NCBI GenBank assembly: GCA_008802785.1
Contig: VUYT01000004.1
Location: 558,001-622,000, forward strand
Length of the DNA: 64,000 nucleotides
Source: Symmetrospora coprosmae
Lineage: Eukaryota > Basidiomycota > Cystobasidiomycetes > Symmetrosporaceae
Direction: 5' to 3'
This document shows positions 9,746-59,745 of the stretch, piece after piece. The notes under the pieces were generated by a model. The model saw only the letters and a program-made list of their open reading frames with translations, ran no database searches and had not been told where the DNA came from. Position 1 is the first letter of the stretch; every line of letters starts with the position of its first letter. Position numbers and translations under genes: made by a program.

Positions 9746-11076
9746 GAAGTCCAGATATCACAACTCGCCCAAGGCTGGGCACTGTCGAGGATGGTCAAGA
9801 GTAAACTAGCCGTCTGACGCGTGCTTTGGCTCGACAACCTCGTGGATCCGCTCCATCCGCTCTGTCCGCAATACCCGGTCCGAAAGACCGGATACAGCTA
9901 TCCGCAAAATGCTCGAATCGAGCTCATCCTATGAAACACTAACATCCGCTGCTCATCTGATGCATCTCTTGCTGGACCTGCTAAGTCGCTGCTATTTGGA
10001 GTCGATACCCCCTCTCTCCACTCCTGGCCACACACGGCTTTCTCGCCCATCACGATGGCCAGAAATGATTCTGACTAACCTACGAAGAAGACTATGCCTC
10101 GACGCTGAGACCATTTCTTCGACAACTTCCTTGACTTCTGCATCTGCCGCACGCGCCCGCCCATAAAACAGCTCCCGATACGCCCTACAGCCAACATCGA
10201 TGTATCCGAAACACTAACGGATTGCCTGTTCCGCCATCAATCGAAGCAGGTCCAGATAGTCGGGTGTTGGGTCCAGCCTACTGATGGCGATCGATATCAA
10301 CCTATATGAGGGGGTGAGAGGGGCTGTAAGTCGCGGAGTATGGCATTGTGGGTTCCACAACCGTCGGACTCCAAGCGAGAAAGCGAAAGTAGCGCGACCG
10401 AGAGGCCATCCGCAGGCCTTTGACTAACCCTTGGCGGTCTATACTGCTGCAGTCGGGGAGTGCACGACCATGTCCAGAGAGGATCGCTGAAGCACAATCG
10501 GGAGGCCTGCGTCTCCGTGAAAGCGATTTCTATTCCGACAAGTTCACCGCCAAAGAATTCTATACACCTTACTTGTGCATAAATCCCAGGAAGACATCAT
10601 AAGCAGAAGGACTCGGCTAGATGCGCATGTGTACATACACGTGTGGTCGTACGAAGCGTCGAAAGCCACCCACTTCGGGAAGCGGCACGCAGGACGGGAG
10701 CGGAGCTATGAATGTAAGGTAGCCTACGTTGACCAGATCGTCGCAAGCCTTTCGGGGTCATTTCATCGGGCGAGGCTACTCGCGTACGGTACCTGGGCCT
10801 GTGTTGATCCCTGGCACGTGTCTAGAGGTGGCGTTTGTCCAGCAAGTCTTGCACCAAGGAAAGGAGACTTCTACCAGGCATGTCTTCTACTGATGACTAA
10901 AGCAAACTTCGAGAGTGGATCGCAGAATAGGTCAGCGGTTTTTGCGCGGTGACGCGGCGAGACTCTGGTCGGATGCGGCAAAGCACGGGCGGGGAGAAAC
11001 AGCTGAGAGCCTGTGGATACTCATTGTATCACATGATATATACGTAAATCGGCACGTTCGCGGTTCTGCGCATGGC
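9746..11076. other. Gene-poor stretch upstream of tRNA-Leu
   Basis: This stretch of about 1.3 kb has stops in all frames at short spacing. The longest open frames (around 85-125 codons, for example at 10575-10952) show no recognisable domain, no intron logic and no supporting context. It contains the ubiquitin-protease promoter and the leader of the tRNA gene. I see no second RNA gene here, but a structured non-coding RNA cannot be excluded by eye. Confidence 0.4.
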
Positions 11077-11091
11077 GGGCGGATGGCCGAG

Positions 11092-11156
11092 GTTTGTCTT
11101 ACGTTTTGGCCTGCGGCGTGGTGAACGCACGCTTACCTGCTTCACCCCATCGACAG
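11092..11156 (+). other. 65-nt GT...AG insertion in the D loop of tRNA-Leu (candidate ectopic intron)
   Basis: The insertion begins GTTTGT and ends GACAG. It falls exactly between GCCGAG and TGGTCTAAGGC of the D-arm. It contains CTTAC, with the A 21 nt before the 3' end, which resembles the branch-site position of the protein-gene introns here. Its length (65 nt) also matches them. TGTC near its start can pair with GACA at its end. It interrupts the A box after TGGCCGAG. Whether the spliceosome, the tRNA endonuclease or nothing removes it cannot be told from sequence. Confidence 0.8.
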
Positions 11157-11179
11157 TGGTCTAAGGCGCTACGTTTAGG

Positions 11180-11197
11180 TTCGTCAAACGAAACAAT
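11180..11197 (+). other. Canonical 18-nt tRNA intron after position 37
   Basis: The anticodon stem strands CTACG and CGTAG enclose 25 nt instead of seven. Taking T32 T33 TAG G37 from the 5' side and C38 from the 3' side leaves 18 nt at the standard site of tRNA introns. TTCG and CGAA inside it can form a short hairpin, as is common for such introns. Confidence 0.82.
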
Positions 11198-11243
11198 CCG
11201 TAGTTCTTCGGAGCAAGGGTTCAAATCCCTTTCCGCTCATTTG

Positions 11244-11247
11244 TTTT
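11244..11247 (+). terminator. RNA polymerase III T-run terminator
   Basis: A TTTT run lies five bases after the discriminator base of tRNA-Leu, within a TTTGTTTT context. This is the expected Pol III stop signal and supports the gene being transcribed by Pol III. Confidence 0.7.
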
Positions 11248-16963: not shown

Positions 16964-19885
16964 ATGCCTCGGTCTCCAGGCATCGTCGACGGACCGCTCG
17001 GCCACACGGACCTCACGCGGTGGAGGCTCGACTCGACCGACCGCGGCCGACATGTCTGGTCCTACCAACCGTCGAGCGATGCTGAGAAGCAGGCTGGCTT
17101 GTGAGGCTGCGCTCATCACGGCTCTGGAGCGTATGGCTGCCTCCAAGCTGACCATCGAGCCCGCACAGGGGCGCTGCGAACCCGCTGATCCTGCCAGAAG
17201 CCGCCCGAGATCATCAAACGAACGAAGAAAAGTACTGGCTGGGACTGGAGACGGTGAGAGACCTCATCATATGAGCTCCGATGCGGCTCAAGCTTCGGCT
17301 GACCGTGGCTTGCCGGCTCACCTAGAACACGCCGAGTCTGAAGCACCATGGCGGCGACCCGTTTCAAGCCGCCAAGAATGGCTACAACTTCTTCAAGCAG
17401 ATACAGAGTCCCGACGGCCACTGGTCCGGCGAGTACGGCGGACCGCTCTTCCTGGTCAGTTCTAGGCGCAGTCTACGCGTGCCCGGAACGAGCTGACGAC
17501 AGGAAGCCCTTCCTGCAGATCCCTGGCATGGTCGTTACGCTATACGCGACTCGGACGCCCATACCCGAAGAGTGGAAGGTCGAGCTCGCACGATACCTCG
17601 CCAATGTGCAGCGGAACGGGGACAAGGATGACCAGGGTTGGGGCTTGTGAGCGGCGCGCACAGGCTATGTGACCCGCGTCATCAAGCGGCCTCTGACTTG
17701 CTTATCCGTTACAATAGGCACGACCACGGGCCATCGACCGTCTACGGTACGGCTCTCAACTATACCGCGCTCCGGCTGCTTGGTGTCAGTGCCGACCATC
17801 CCATGCTCGTGAGAGCGAGAAACACCCTGCACGTTCTAGGTGAGTGCCATCTTCCCCAGGCAATATACTTAGAAGATGGCTGATAGGAGGCATCGGCCTC
17901 CCAGGTGGCGCGACTGGCATCCCCTCCTGGGGCAAGGCATGGCTGTCTATCCTGAACGTATACGACTGGAGCGGGATGAACGCGATCCCTCCAGAGCTCT
18001 GGCTTCTTCCGAAGTGGATTCCAGTGCATCCTTGGAGATGGTGGACGCACACGAGAGCGGTCTATATACCCATGGGATACCTCTACGGCCGTCAGTTCAG
18101 AGTACCGCTCTCCGATCTGACAAGGTCCATCCGGGAAGTGCGTAAACACGCTCTCACTGCCTGACCTGCTCGATAGGGCTGACCCGCATACTTTCACAGG
18201 AACTCTACACGCAACCGTACTCCTCCATAGACTGGCCATCCTGCCGCAACAAGGTAGCCAAGATCGATCTTTACTGCCCGCACTCACGCGTGCTCGATGC
18301 CATGTACGTCGCGCTCGGCGCGTGGGAGAAGTTTGTGTGCCCGAAGTTCGTGCGAAATGCGGGAATACGCGAAGCGTACAAGCTCGTACAGATGGAAGAC
18401 CGCAACAGCAACTCGCAGACGATCGGGCCCGTCTCGAAGGCCATGAACATGCTGTGCGCCTGGGTCGAGGAAGGCCCCGACAGCAGCGCCTTCAAGAGCC
18501 ACGTCGAGACGGTGCGCGACTTCTTCTGGCAGTCGCCAAAGGGCATGCTCGTGTGCGGGACGAACGGCTCGCAGCTGTGGGACGCGGCATTCGCAGCGCA
18601 GATGCTGTACGAGACGGGCCTCGCCGAGCTCGAAGAGAACAAGGAGTCCGTCAACAAGCTCCTTGGATGGATTGACGACTGCCAGATGCAGGAGGATACG
18701 CCGTACGTCGAGGTAGCGCATCGGCATCCTAGCAAGGGCGCTTGGCCGTTCAGCACGCGCGAACAGCACTACACCGTTAGCGATTGCACAGCAGAAGGTC
18801 TCAAGGCAGTCATCTATTTGCAAAGTCTAGGGTGCGTTCCTCACACGAGTGGCACTGCATTCAGCCCTCTGATACATGATCCGCGTCTCACAGGTACACC
18901 ACCGACCTCGTCAGCAAAGAGCGCATGTGCTGGGCCATCGACATTCTCCTATCCCTGCAGAACGCGGATGGCGGCTTTGCATCGTACGAGCTCATCAGAG
19001 GCACGCGCTACATGGAGCTCATCAACCCGGCCGAGGTCTTTGTAGGTCTTTTGGCAGGCTGGGCCACCACGCGCTCGCTACGGCTTGCTGACGCATGCTG
19101 CAGGGCAACATCATGATTGAGTACAACTACCCAGAGTGCTCAACTGCCTCGCTCACCGCTTTGAGCGTCTTCCATCGTCTTCACCCAAGCTATCGCTCGA
19201 GGGAAGTAGAGTGAGTCGCCGCGCCTTCAAGCCATCCCATTTGCAACACGCTGAACTGCTCCCCCTAGAACCACAATCTCAAAAGCCATCGGATACATTC
19301 ACGCCTCACAGCGCAAGGATGGCAGCTGGTTCGGCAGCTGGGGCGTCTGCTTCACCTATGCCACCATGTTCGCCCTCGAATCGCTAGCGCTGAACGGCGA
19401 GACCTACGAGTCGAGCCAACGCGTCAGACGGGCTTGCGACTTCATCATTGGCAAGCAGATGGCAGACGGCGGGTGGGGCGAGAGCTGGAAGGTGGGTGGA
19501 TACTGCACCTTATCCAAATTCGGCACCGGCTAATCTAAGTTGCGTCTCGCAGGCTTGCGAAGTCGGGCACTGGGTGGACGCTGAGTCATCGACCGTCATC
19601 AACACTGCCTGGGCCGTCATTGCGCTTCTCGTTGCCAAGTATCCCCATGCGGAAGCCATCAAGCGAGGATGCAGAGTCATCATGGACCGTCAGCAGCCGA
19701 ATGGCGAGTGGCTGCTCGAGTCGACCGTGAGTGATGTGGAACGGTGAGTGCGGACAAGCTCTGATGTCACTTGGTCCCGACAGTGCGGCATCTTCAACAA
19801 GTCTTGCGCGATAGATTACCCTAACTTCAAGATGATTTGGACGACGTGGGCATTGGGCAAGGCAGCCAAGGAGCTTCAGTGGTAG
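16964..19885 (+). CDS. ERG7: Lanosterol synthase (oxidosqualene cyclase)
   Basis: This enzyme cyclises 2,3-oxidosqualene to lanosterol in ergosterol synthesis at ER or lipid-droplet membranes. ATG 16964 starts [20 protein letters not shown]. Exon 1 is 16964-17100 and exon 2 is 17169-17253; exon 2 contains [11 protein letters not shown], a family hallmark. Then come [34 protein letters not shown] and WKHP-like region [19 protein letters not shown]. The catalytic motif is VSDCTAEGL (DCTAE, acid Asp). QW repeats are [26 protein letters not shown] and [10 protein letters not shown]. The end is [14 protein letters not shown] followed by TAG at 19885. All major catalytic features are intact. About ten introns. 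The first ATG was chosen because it yields the conserved TDLTRWRL start. Confidence 0.95.
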
Positions 19886-55273: not shown

Positions 55274-58200
55274 TCACTCGATGCACGAGTCCTTGTAGAA
55301 GTTCCTGCCCTCGTCAGTCGCCTTGACGTAGCCGGCGCGAATGGTCCAGTCACCGAACTTCTCGCCGTCCATCCGGTCCGCAGCGTAATGCTTGATCATC
55401 GGGCGCAGGATGTCCAAGATCTCCTTCTCGCCAACACCATCACGGTACGGCTTGCTGATCCGCTCGCCAGTGTACCCTCCTCCGAGCATCATGAGGTAGT
55501 TGTCCTTGGACTTTCCGACGAAAGAAGCCTCGGCGACCCATGGTCTCGCGCAGCCTGCGGTATTGCCAAGACGGATACGTCAGTTTCGGCGGCTGAGGGT
55601 ACAGAGAGCTGCGCCAGCCACTCACCGTTAGGGCAACCCGTCATGCGCATGACAATGCTGTCGTTTCGCAGACCGTTCTCCTCGAGGATTGTCTCAATCT
55701 TGTCGACCAGGACGGGCAGGTACCGCTCTGATTCCGCCATGGCCAGGCCACATGTCGGGAAGGCGACACACGCCGACGATGAAAGTCGGAGACCAGAGAA
55801 GTCGACGTTGTCGAGGCCGTACTTCTTGAGCAGCTTGGCGATTGTTGCCTCCTCGGACGGCCCAATGTCCGAGATGATGAGATGCTGGTTCGCAGTCAGG
55901 CGGAAGACGCCCTTGTGCACCTTTGCAATCTCGCGCAGACCCGTCTTGAAGTCCTTGCCCGGCTCGTCCTGCACTCGCCCGTTCTCGATGAAACACGTAA
56001 AGTGCTTCTTGCCGTCCCATCCCGTCTGCCAGCCGAAGGTGTCGATGTTACGCTCGAACTTGTAGGCACGCTCAGGGGCGAGCTTCCAGCCGAGGCGCTC
56101 TTCGACTGCGGCCTTGAAGCCCTCGACCGTCATGTCATCGACAGTGTACTTCAGGCGGGCGTCTGGAAGTGGCAGAAAAGTCCCGTGTCAGTGTATGCTT
56201 CGCCGATGTGTGCGTGGCTGCAGCATATGGACGTACGCTTCCTGTTGGTACGATCTCCGTGGTCGCGCTGGACGAGCATGATCTTCTCGGCGACATCGCA
56301 ACCCTGCTCCTTCGTCACGAAGCCAATCACGGATCCCAGACGCGGGTAGGTCTTCTTCATAGAGTGTGTGACACCCATCCCTCCTCCGATGGAGACGTTG
56401 AAGCCCTGGAGCTCTCCCTCTGGCGAGACGATGGCAATGAAGCCGACGTCGTGGCAGAAGACGTCCGTGTCGTTCGTTGGCGGGACGGCGATGGCGATCT
56501 TGAACTTTCGCGGGAGGTAGTACTTGCCGTAGAGCGGCTCGACATCCTTGACAGCGTCGCCTGCGACCATCTTCTTGTCGAGCCAAATCTCGGCGTATGC
56601 GTTTGTCCGTGGCATGAGGTGCTCCGAGATGTTCTTTGCAAACTCGGCAATCTGCGCGTGGATGGGTCCGAGCGATGGATTGCACGAGCACATGACGTTT
56701 CTGTTGACGTCTCCGCACGCTGCGATGGTGTCGAGCATGGCTTTGTTGATCATCTGGATTGCCGGCTTGAGGTCGGCCTTGATGATACCGTGGAATTGGA
56801 ATGTCTGCCGCGTCGTCAACTTGAATGTGCCGTTACCGCGCTTGTCCGAAATGTTGTCGATGGCGAGCCACTGGTCGGCCGTGCACACACCCGCAGGCAT
56901 GCGGACACGGACCATGAACGAGTACGCAGGCTCCATTCCCTGTGCTGTCCTCTCCTCTCGGATGTCACGGTCATCTTGCTGGTAGATACCGTGGAACTGC
57001 GAGTGGAGCATGAACGTCAGCATCCATCGATCCACAACCACACAAGCCTGGTCTAGTCACCTTCGTAAGCTGTCCGTCGCTCTCGGCGAGTGCGCCGGTG
57101 CTGGTGTCAACGAGACCCTCCTTGATGGTTCCTCGGAGGTAATTACTGGCGATCTTGATGTGCTCATTTGTGATCGGCTCTGGCTCGGCCTCAACAATCT
57201 CGACGCCAGCAACACCGAGAGCCTTCCAAATCTTCTGTTCCCAGATCTTGTAGCCCGTCATGTAGCCATCGGCGTCCTGGTCATCACCAAGACCGATCTC
57301 CTCCACCAAGCGAGTGGCAGAGATCTCTGCAAGGCGACGGTCGAGGTCTTTGGACGACTTGTTGTAGTAGTGGGCGTCCTCCGGGCGCGGCCAGTAGTGC
57401 GAGTCTCCGAGGCCGAAGACGGCATACTTGAGCATGGACCACGCTCCGTCACTTCCGTTAGGTGCGTTCTCGCCGCCGGCGGGGACAGCCTGCAATGCCT
57501 TCCACAGGCCTCGACCATTGAGAGGGAACTCGCCCTGACCCGCCGTGCTCGTCATGAAGACGACATTGTCCTCTTTCTGGTCCTTCAGGCTCTCGAGGTT
57601 GTCGCCTGCAAATTCGTCCATGACAACCAAGCGCGCATTGACGCCTCGTGCAGTTGCACGCGCTGTAAACTTCTTGGCCAGCTTCTCTGCGACACCGCCG
57701 TCGGATGCATACAGGACAAGTAGACCTGGTCCGCTCGTGAGCGCGCCGGAGAGGCGGTCGAATGCCTCGCGAGCCTTGCTCTGCTTAGCCTCCTTCTGCT
57801 TTGTGCCGAGCGAGATGGCGTTCATGTCGTACGATGGCAGGCGAGCGGCCAGCTGGGTGAGGAGATTTTGCCTGTCGAGGAAGTCGGCGAGGTCCGCCTT
57901 GACCTTGACCGAGTCGAGCGAGAATGCCTCTGCATCCGGCTTGGACGGGTCGTAGCGGTAAAGTCCCCAGAAACCGGACTCCATGGCCTGCTTGGTGCTC
58001 TTAAGCACCTCGAGGGCCATGGCGCTATCATCCTCTCCACCGGGCAGGTATGCCATAACGACGGACGGGCCCTTGAACCGCTCGGCTTCAACCACGGCGC
58101 GCACAGTCTGCGAGTAGTCGCCGTACACGGCCACAGAGGCGACGTAGGCGTTGCCGTAGTTGAGCGCGTAGAGACCGATGTCCTTCTTGCGCTGAGCCGT

Positions 58201-59745
58201 CCTCGGTGCCGGGTACGGTGCAGTGTCGATAACGAGAATGTTGCAGTCGACGCCTGTGCTGAGCAGAGTCTGGAGACCGCTCAAGCCGGTGTCGTATGCC
58301 CAAGCGTCGGATCCGATGATCCAGCTGGCCTTATCCGGGTTGTGACCAGAGGCCAGGTACTTGCCGATCGCGAGCGAAGGTGAAGGAGAGGTGAGATCGT
58401 TCAGAACATTGAGCCTATCCTGGAAAGCCTGGTCAAGGACCTTGTGGTAGGCCAGCTCGTGCTTTGGCACAGAGAGCGGGGCAGAAGGGTAGGAGAGGTC
58501 CGATGGGAGCTGCCCGACGACGGCGTCGTTGCTAGGCGTGGCGAAGAGGTGCTCGACCGTCTTGGCTGCCTCTGAAGCAGTAGCTGTGCCGACTGCGCCA
58601 AAGAGGGCGGAAGAGATGGCTGGCACCTCCCGAGGAGTCTCCTGTGCCGAGTGGAAGGCAGAGAGCACGTCGAGGTACAGTGGCGACCACTTGGTTGTCT
58701 TGCTGTAGGCCTGCTCAAGAACGACTACCGACTTGACGGACTCTGGAATGAGCGAGAGGAGAGTGGCGGGAGTAAGAGGGCGGTAGAGTGAGAGCGAGAG
58801 GATGCCAGTGTCGGAAATGTCGAGTGCGCCGGCAAGCGAAGAGATGGCGATGGAGTTGCCAAGCGTGACGACGAACCGGCTAGGGCTGGCAGGTCCCGCA
58901 GAGTGACTCGGCTTCAGATTGAGCTTGTGCTGCTCGGCCAGCTCGTAGGCCTCGTCAAGGGCGGACTGGAGCGAGTGGTGCTGCGAAGGGAGGTTGTCGG
59001 TGTCGGCATTGCCCGTCGTCTGGCCGTGCCCGTTGCTCATGCCATTGACGTGGCCATTGAGCTTTGCGCCGTGCTGCAGGAACTTATCTGCAAAGGGCAT
59101 GTGCACCTCGCCCCCTTGCTCTGCGCCTTCGAAGAAGTGCACGACCGCGCGCGAAGCGCTGACAGCAATCTTGCTCGCCAGGAGAGCATTCTTCTGTGCC
59201 TCTTCTGCGCTGGCAGAGTAGATGAGCACAAAGCCCGCGCTCTTGAGAACCTGCAAGCTGGCGTGGTCGCCGTTGGTGCTGAGGTGAAGGACGATGGGGA
59301 AGCCGAGGATGGCCTTTGCGGCTGTCGACACGAGGCGGCTGAGCAGAGCGGGCTCGGCGGATGCAAAGAGCGAGATGGGCTTGCTGAACCCGCTCGTTTG
59401 CTCTGTCTCCCTTGCGATCCTCAAGAGGGCATCGCAGGGATCGGATGAAGCGGCGGGGAGCTTCTGCGTGACTGGCGAGACGGCATTGGAAGACGATGCA
59501 AAGAGAGAAGGGTAGAGGAGGATGTTGCTGCTGCTCCAGCTGCTTGCACGTCGCCCTACGAGCGTCGCAGCGTTGTTGGACGACGTCCCGAGCATCGCTG
59601 GATATATTTTGCAAGTGCCCTGCTTGAAAGAAAGAACGCCACGCCCCAGGGAGGTTCGGACGCGCAGGGGAAGATGAGTGTGAGCCGGGACAGGCACACT
59701 GATGGACTGTTTGGACAGCGGAGAAGGAAGGACAGACGAGCTCAC
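55274..59745 (-). CDS. MET5: Sulfite reductase (NADPH) hemoprotein beta subunit
   Basis: This siroheme/4Fe-4S enzyme reduces sulfite to sulfide for cysteine and methionine. The first exon, about 900 codons, holds a pyruvate:ferredoxin-oxidoreductase-like region ([20 protein letters not shown]) and then a flavodoxin domain ([39 protein letters not shown]). The reductase part has [19 protein letters not shown] and VMCSCNPSL. The metal-binding cysteines are in [13 protein letters not shown] and in TGCPNG joined to CARPW across an intron. It ends FYKDSCIE. All four cluster cysteine regions are visible. Start 59745 ([14 protein letters not shown]) is the first ATG; an in-frame ATG at 59595 ([13 protein letters not shown]) may be the true start, because yeast Met5 lacks this extension. 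Confidence 0.94.

Follow-up and report, generated by a model that had tools for sequence, protein, structure and literature searches.

In the textbook division of labour, nuclear tRNA introns are removed by a protein endonuclease and a ligase, and mRNA introns by the spliceosome. A nuclear tRNA-Leu(UAG) gene of Symmetrospora coprosmae is interrupted twice, once at the usual place and once in the D loop. What is the D-loop insert, by what route would it be removed, and does it stand alone in this genome? The gene lies in a window of 64,000 nucleotides (G000:C44:558001-622000; "the window" means this whole stretch) of an assembly of 20.05 Mb. A basidiomycete host, as assumed in an earlier sequence-only reading, was borne out by the lanosterol synthase in the window, which is 70% identical to that of Cystobasidium minutum and 56% to that of the next named species; the best named match of the sulfite reductase was Tilletiaria anomala (58% over 46% of the query). 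The lanosterol synthase result was given more weight and places the host in or near the Cystobasidiomycetes. The parts of the locus are as follows.

11037..11042, + strand: TATATA upstream element, 35-40 nt 5' of the tRNA gene
11077..11239, + strand: nuclear tRNA-Leu(UAG) gene, positions 1-73, with a type II variable arm (sequence, ARAGORN on the excised form, solver)
11077..11091, + strand: exon 1, positions 1-15, ending GCCGAG
11084..11098, + strand: A-box region, TGGCCGAG followed across the junction by GTTTGTC in the gene, and TGGCCGAGTGGTCTA once spliced
11092..11156, + strand: 65-nt GT...AG intron at 15/16, very probably of spliceosomal type (solver, shuffles, free-end excision)
11092..11097, + strand: 5' splice site GTTTGT (+5 = G, +6 = T)
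11132..11136, + strand: branch-site-like CTTAC, with its A at 11135, 21 nt from the intron end
11152..11156, + strand: 3' splice site GACAG
11157..11179, + strand: exon 2, positions 16-37, with the anticodon TAG at 11176-11178
11180..11197, + strand: ordinary 18-nt tRNA intron at 37/38
11198..11239, + strand: exon 3, positions 38-73, with the long variable arm, T arm, acceptor and A73
11218..11228, + strand: B box GGTTCAAATCC, uninterrupted
11240..11247, + strand: TTTGTTTT, a possible Pol III terminator, its longest T run (4) not above one within the intron

The order from 11077 to 11239 is GGGCGGATGGCCGAG, 65 nt, TGGTCTAAGGCGCTACGTTTAGG, 18 nt and the remainder of a type II tRNA-Leu(TAG). In the intact region the only ARAGORN call was tRNA-Arg(tcg), given an intron of 72 nt; the Rfam tRNA model scored 14.2 bits there (cut-off 29), on the T arm alone. 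When 11092-11156 was removed, ARAGORN reported an 80-base tRNA-Leu(tag) whose anticodon loop holds an 18-nt intron. It called Leu(tag) only after this excision, indicating that removal of the insert restores the tRNA-Leu fold, as had been proposed from the sequence. The two introns of that proposal, 18 nt at 37/38 and 65 nt between 15 and 16, were likewise recovered by the sequence, ARAGORN with excision and our solver, which tries zero to three excisions per gene with GT...AG ends imposed. We also scored 2574 free excisions (45-130 nt, any end letters). The 12 that scored within one point of the best all lay at most 4 nt from 11092/11156, and the sole GT...AG excision among them was exactly 11092-11156. 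The real score was 34.5, and the maximum among 60 dinucleotide-preserving interior shuffles was 24.5, none of them equalling it. Canonical Sen-endonuclease introns lie at 37/38, as the 18-nt intron does; the 65-nt insert differs from them in lying at 15/16 and in having GT...AG ends and a branch-like site. The Rfam search of the window gave no match above cut-off, group I intron cores included, and 65 nt is too short for a group I catalytic core. Judged from these sequence features, the D-loop insert is very probably a U2-type spliceosomal intron in a Pol III tRNA gene, whose transcript would go through both spliceosomal and ordinary 37/38 pre-tRNA splicing.

To obtain a yardstick for this reading, related proteins were aligned to two genes of the window with GT...AG ends imposed; an alignment near 26.5 kb was too uncertain and was excluded.

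16964..19882, + strand: lanosterol synthase gene, 11 introns of 57-72 nt
55289..59595, - strand: sulfite reductase beta gene, 3 introns of 64-74 nt

The 14 introns of these genes measured 57-74 nt; 13 of the 14 had G at +5, 13 of the 14 had a CTNAY motif, and in 12 the motif lay 13-32 nt from the intron end.

The sequence-only reading had treated one gene and asked whether other tRNA genes carry such inserts. They do. We searched the genome with B-box and T-loop patterns and with the Rfam tRNA model, and found 45 nuclear tRNA genes, of which 23 were interrupted by 31 GT...AG inserts at 14 kinds of position and 22 had no such insert. This census is not complete, as it lacks any Met or His gene and some of the Ser, Thr, Leu and Ile isoacceptors, and the interrupted share is therefore an estimate. 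The gene set was picked by the GT...AG-seeking solver, and the anticodon and intron number in the final list were set by hand from prior solver output. In two genes a hand choice went against the score: L105 was set to Glu(UUC) (32.0, over a rival at 33.5) and L087 to Gln(CUG) (30.0, over 31.0 unspliced). Gly(CCC) and Gly(UCC) were named from geometry, and these two labels are less secure. The interrupted genes were the following.

One insert each: Leu(UAG), Leu(AAG), Cys, Ala(UGC), Ala(AGC), Arg(CCU), Pro(AGG), Pro(UGG), Gln(CUG), Gly(UCC), Gly(CCC), Ile(AAU), Glu(UUC), Thr(CGU), Val(AAC), Val(UAC)
Two inserts each: Asp (two genes), Trp, Lys(CUU) (two genes), Lys(UUU)
Three inserts: Pro(CGG)

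The site 15/16 held 9 of the 31 inserts, including that of tRNA-Leu(UAG). The others lay at 13/14, 16/18, 24/25, 25/26, 27/28, 28/29, 31/32, 33/34, 34/35, in the variable arm, and at 51/52, 52/53 and 53/54. Many of the interrupted genes also have a 37/38 intron. Among the 45 genes of this incomplete census, every copy of Asp, Cys, Lys, Pro, Trp and Leu(UAG) carried an insert; for Ile(AAU), Leu(AAG), Val(AAC), Ala(AGC) and Gln(CUG), copies without a GT...AG insert were present alongside interrupted ones.

The coverage of the census can be given by source. The B-box search gave 129 places, 100 of them listed; where position 60 is a purine, the places were examined as far as C16:222356, and all 39 nuclear places with a pyrimidine at position 60 fell within examined stretches. 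Stretches picked by eye from the B-box and T-loop search rows held a tRNA gene in 6 of 13 cases. The T-loop motif search gave four places, and each held a tRNA-Val gene. All tRNA-Val genes found (L096, L115, L116, L117) have the T loop ATCGAAA, three of the four having been found by that motif itself; this loop is typical of initiator tRNA-Met. The genome-wide Rfam tRNA search returned 38 matches at E up to 0.001; contig C77, regarded as mitochondrial, accounted for 19. With the limit raised to E = 10, it listed 4 of the 23 interrupted genes (L037, L055, L099, L100) and missed 4 of the 22 uninterrupted ones (L047, L048, L106, L115); this search scores only its best candidates, and its counts were therefore not used as a census.

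The inserts had a uniform build. They measured 58-106 nt, 30 of the 31 being no longer than 82 nt. The +5 base was G in 31/31 (imposed solely for the three introns of L063), as against 323/1381 in the best solutions of shuffled genes, and CTNAY lay 13-32 nt from the intron end in 31/31, as against 264/1381; the distances in the real inserts were 15-30 nt. A strict set of 19 introns from 16 genes, from which we left out L063, the duplicates L076/L093, and L087, L103, L105 and L116 (an equal or better rival, or a hand choice), had both signals in 19/19. Not one of 1380 shuffles (60 dinucleotide-preserving interior shuffles for each of the 23 genes) equalled the real score; L063, scored with two introns only, reached 28.0 against a shuffle maximum of 25.5. 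The tRNA inserts match the protein-gene introns in length and in most signals. The two are not quite one population, since T stood at +3 in 11/31 tRNA introns and 0/14 protein introns (Fisher 0.0098; nonredundant 0.017).

When the end letters were left free, GT...AG was among the best excisions (within one point) in 10 of the 16 one-intron genes, with about 1.5 expected by chance, an expectation that comes mostly from L107 (265 such ties). For L099 and L111 the peaks lay at most 5 nt from the chosen ends. L087, L088, L091 and L105 had a higher-scoring rival excision elsewhere and are ambiguous by structure alone, so that their assignment rests on the splice-site letters and on family likeness. 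Three genes, L093, L103 and L116, have a GT...AG rival of equal score a few bases downstream that lacks +5 G; here the 5'-most was chosen. L055 has an odd 3' site, AAAAG. A shared mobile element was also looked for. Among 465 intron pairs only three exceeded 14, the maximum of 2000 shuffled pairs, and these were both Asp introns and one Lys(CUU) intron, each compared between paralogs; no introner-like family is thus evident among the inserts.

Natural pairs of genes fixed one insert independently of the solver. Once its 66-nt GTTAGT...CTAAC...TTACAG insert is taken out, L100 matches the uninterrupted tRNA-Ile(AAU) gene L009 at all 75 nt, and the flanks compared differ between the two genes. 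The bases adjoining the L100 insert (C/G...G/A, with the slash at the junction) do not allow the ends to slide, and the GT...AG is therefore set by this pair and not by the solver. Leu(AAG) offers a similar pair, L104 with an insert at 15/16 and its paralog L106 without. The two Lys(CUU) paralogs L040 and L093 are identical in the mature sequence (73/73), with inserts matching at 46/73 and 53/72 positions, and the two Asp genes are identical at 72/72 mature positions, with inserts matching at 59/63 and 57/61. This contrast, a conserved tRNA around drifting inserts, fits working genes from which the introns can be removed. In the Lys family the 3' intron lies at 51/52 in Lys(CUU) and at 53/54 in Lys(UUU) (L040, L093, L103), a possible case of intron sliding by two bases.

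We also looked at other Pol III RNAs. The U6 snRNA gene (L101) reads CATTAAAATTGG, then 72 nt of the form GTTAGT...CTTAC...AATCAG, then AACGATACAGAG. The 72-nt GT...AG intron occupies L101:1461-1532 (G000:C22, near the contig end), directly before AACGATACAGAG. The Rfam U6 match (65.5 bits) was good from AACGATACAGAG onward, with the end of the intron forced into the 5' hairpin by non-standard pairs. The one full-length 5S rRNA match, of 119 bases, had no insert, and a search for SRP RNA (RF01502) gave no match in the genome at E up to 1. Introns in snRNA genes have also been described in red yeasts. The U6 snRNA of fission yeast has an mRNA-type intron that is thought to have arisen by reverse splicing (PMC10484740). 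The likeness is a spliceosomal intron in a Pol III transcript, with U6 of S. coprosmae apparently carrying one as well; the difference is that in S. coprosmae the hosts are tRNAs (23 of the 45 found), with up to three introns per gene and, in many, a tRNA-type intron too.

An insert at 15/16 splits the A box. A TATA element at -50 to -21 was present in 29 of the 45 tRNA genes, that is, in 16/23 interrupted and 13/22 uninterrupted genes, compared with 3.1 and 2.3 in shuffles. Downstream, the 23 interrupted genes had T runs of 4-8 within 45 nt, several of these genes having been found by a pattern that requires TTTT. The 65-nt intron of tRNA-Leu(UAG) itself contains a TTTT run, and no T run in the 45 nt that follow the gene is longer, which makes premature Pol III termination conceivable. 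T runs of at least 5 occurred in 0/31 introns, but shuffles predict about 1.8/31, and this absence lends no support. The span from position 8 to T54 in the unspliced genes was 104-255 nt. A CATCAA motif starts 9-17 nt 5' of 8 of the 45 tRNA genes (L007, L009, L039, L055, L076, L097, L099, L100), beside a TATA-like element. According to a review, TFIIIC can be dispensable in vitro for the transcription of yeast tRNA genes that have a TATA box (PMC3978253), and the upstream TATA could make a split A box tolerable here. At 15/16 the end of the A box overlaps the 5' splice site (AG/GTNNG), and in Ala(AGC) and Lys(UUU) the final AG of the intron at 53/54 restores most of the B box; our guess is that such overlap of promoter and splice site favoured insertion at these two sites.

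Three other explanations were weighed. The inserts might be ectopic introns of the kind that archaea, red algae and perhaps nucleomorphs have, with the Sen endonuclease cutting at bulge-helix-bulge sites. This is very unlikely. Sites such as 25/26 and 53/54 are indeed also known in archaea (PMC4090602), the tRNA endonuclease family PF01974 matched two loci in the genome, and a 37/38 intron is present too in many of the interrupted genes; endonuclease cutting does not explain the mRNA-type +5 G, branch site and length. The central helix of a bulge-helix-bulge at the 65-nt insert had 1 of 4 pairs, in a simple test that most 37/38 introns, our positive control, also failed. The sequence-only reading had likened the insert to archaeal and red-algal introns; +5 G, the branch-like site and the length point instead to an mRNA-type intron. 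Some likeness to those systems is real: non-canonical sites, several introns per gene and a high share of disrupted genes (PMC3978253, PMC4090602, available parts), with 34 of 43 tRNA genes disrupted in Cyanidioschyzon merolae (PMC3978253). The introns of C. merolae, nucleomorphs and archaea differ in being attributed, in the same parts, to tRNA endonuclease or to a splicing mode given as unknown, and those of Guillardia theta measure 3-24 nt (PMC4090602), whereas the inserts of S. coprosmae measure 58-106 nt and have mRNA-type signals.

That the interrupted copies are pseudogenes, with intact genes elsewhere supplying the tRNAs, is highly improbable. In eukaryotes, insertions in the D or T arm mostly affect a single gene out of many synonymous ones, and such genes are regarded as pseudogenes (PMC4090602). 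The insert-free copies of Ile(AAU), Leu(AAG), Val(AAC), Ala(AGC) and Gln(CUG) would fit this, and L098 (G000:C44:23581-23644), a tRNA-Phe-like fragment without paired acceptor ends, is likely a pseudogene. The explanation fails to account for Asp, Cys, Lys, Pro, Trp and Leu(UAG), for which the incomplete census held no insert-free gene, for mature helices kept while the inserts of Lys and Asp drift, and for splice signals in 31/31 inserts. A BLAST-type search with the tRNA-Leu(UAG) gene returned this copy only, and the 45 genes (census incomplete) included no second intact one, which, together with a lack of RNA spliced at 11091/11157, would by the sequence-only reading mark this copy as a pseudogene. 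The helices of the gene are restored once the 65-nt insert is excised, and we found neither decayed helices nor lost identity features. It is barely credible that 11077-11239 is a different tRNA, for example the Arg(tcg) with a 72-nt intron that ARAGORN gives on the intact region: that fold has a D arm on two wobble pairs and turns the Leu variable arm into an overlong extra loop, whereas the Leu fold has all helices.

For the spliceosomal-intron explanation, the following course of events may be proposed. Pol III would transcribe the tRNA-Leu(UAG) gene from the upstream TATA, the partly preserved A box and the intact B box. The spliceosome would remove 11092-11156 in the nucleus as a lariat, which would allow folding of the D arm; the 18-nt intron at 37/38 would be taken out by the Sen endonuclease and a ligase. 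Such two-pathway processing would extend to about half of the tRNA genes found. The introns may have been inserted long ago, probably through intron transfer or reverse splicing, those at 15/16 into an AG/N site at which the 5' splice site and the internal promoter overlap. We further consider it likely, from the same gene models, that the spliceosome is an obligate tRNA-processing enzyme in this lineage: roughly one nuclear tRNA gene in two, with all the Asp, Cys, Lys, Pro and Trp copies found among them, would need mRNA-type splicing of uncapped Pol III transcripts together with Sen splicing, and their introns would form a class of their own, with the 5' splice site shifted to GTTAGT, as in U6.

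Spliceosomal introns are known in non-coding RNA genes, but in nuclear tRNA genes they apparently are not. Titles and the opening parts of abstracts, in a literature whose scope leaves most subscription journals and all of bioRxiv outside, held no description of them; the main text of two reviews contains no word beginning with "spliceosom" in the parts available (PMC4090602, PMC4033280), and papers on nucleomorphs and others report none in theirs. If many tRNAs need both pathways, the spliceosome would act on uncapped Pol III transcripts at scale, and translation would be tied directly to spliceosome activity. This would also account for tRNA finders missing genes in this genome. The genome would also lend itself, as a natural system, to work on the entry of introns into non-coding RNA genes and on their tolerance by internal promoters. 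The features of these genes suggest that in this fungus the mRNA-splicing machinery also has to finish many of the tRNAs.
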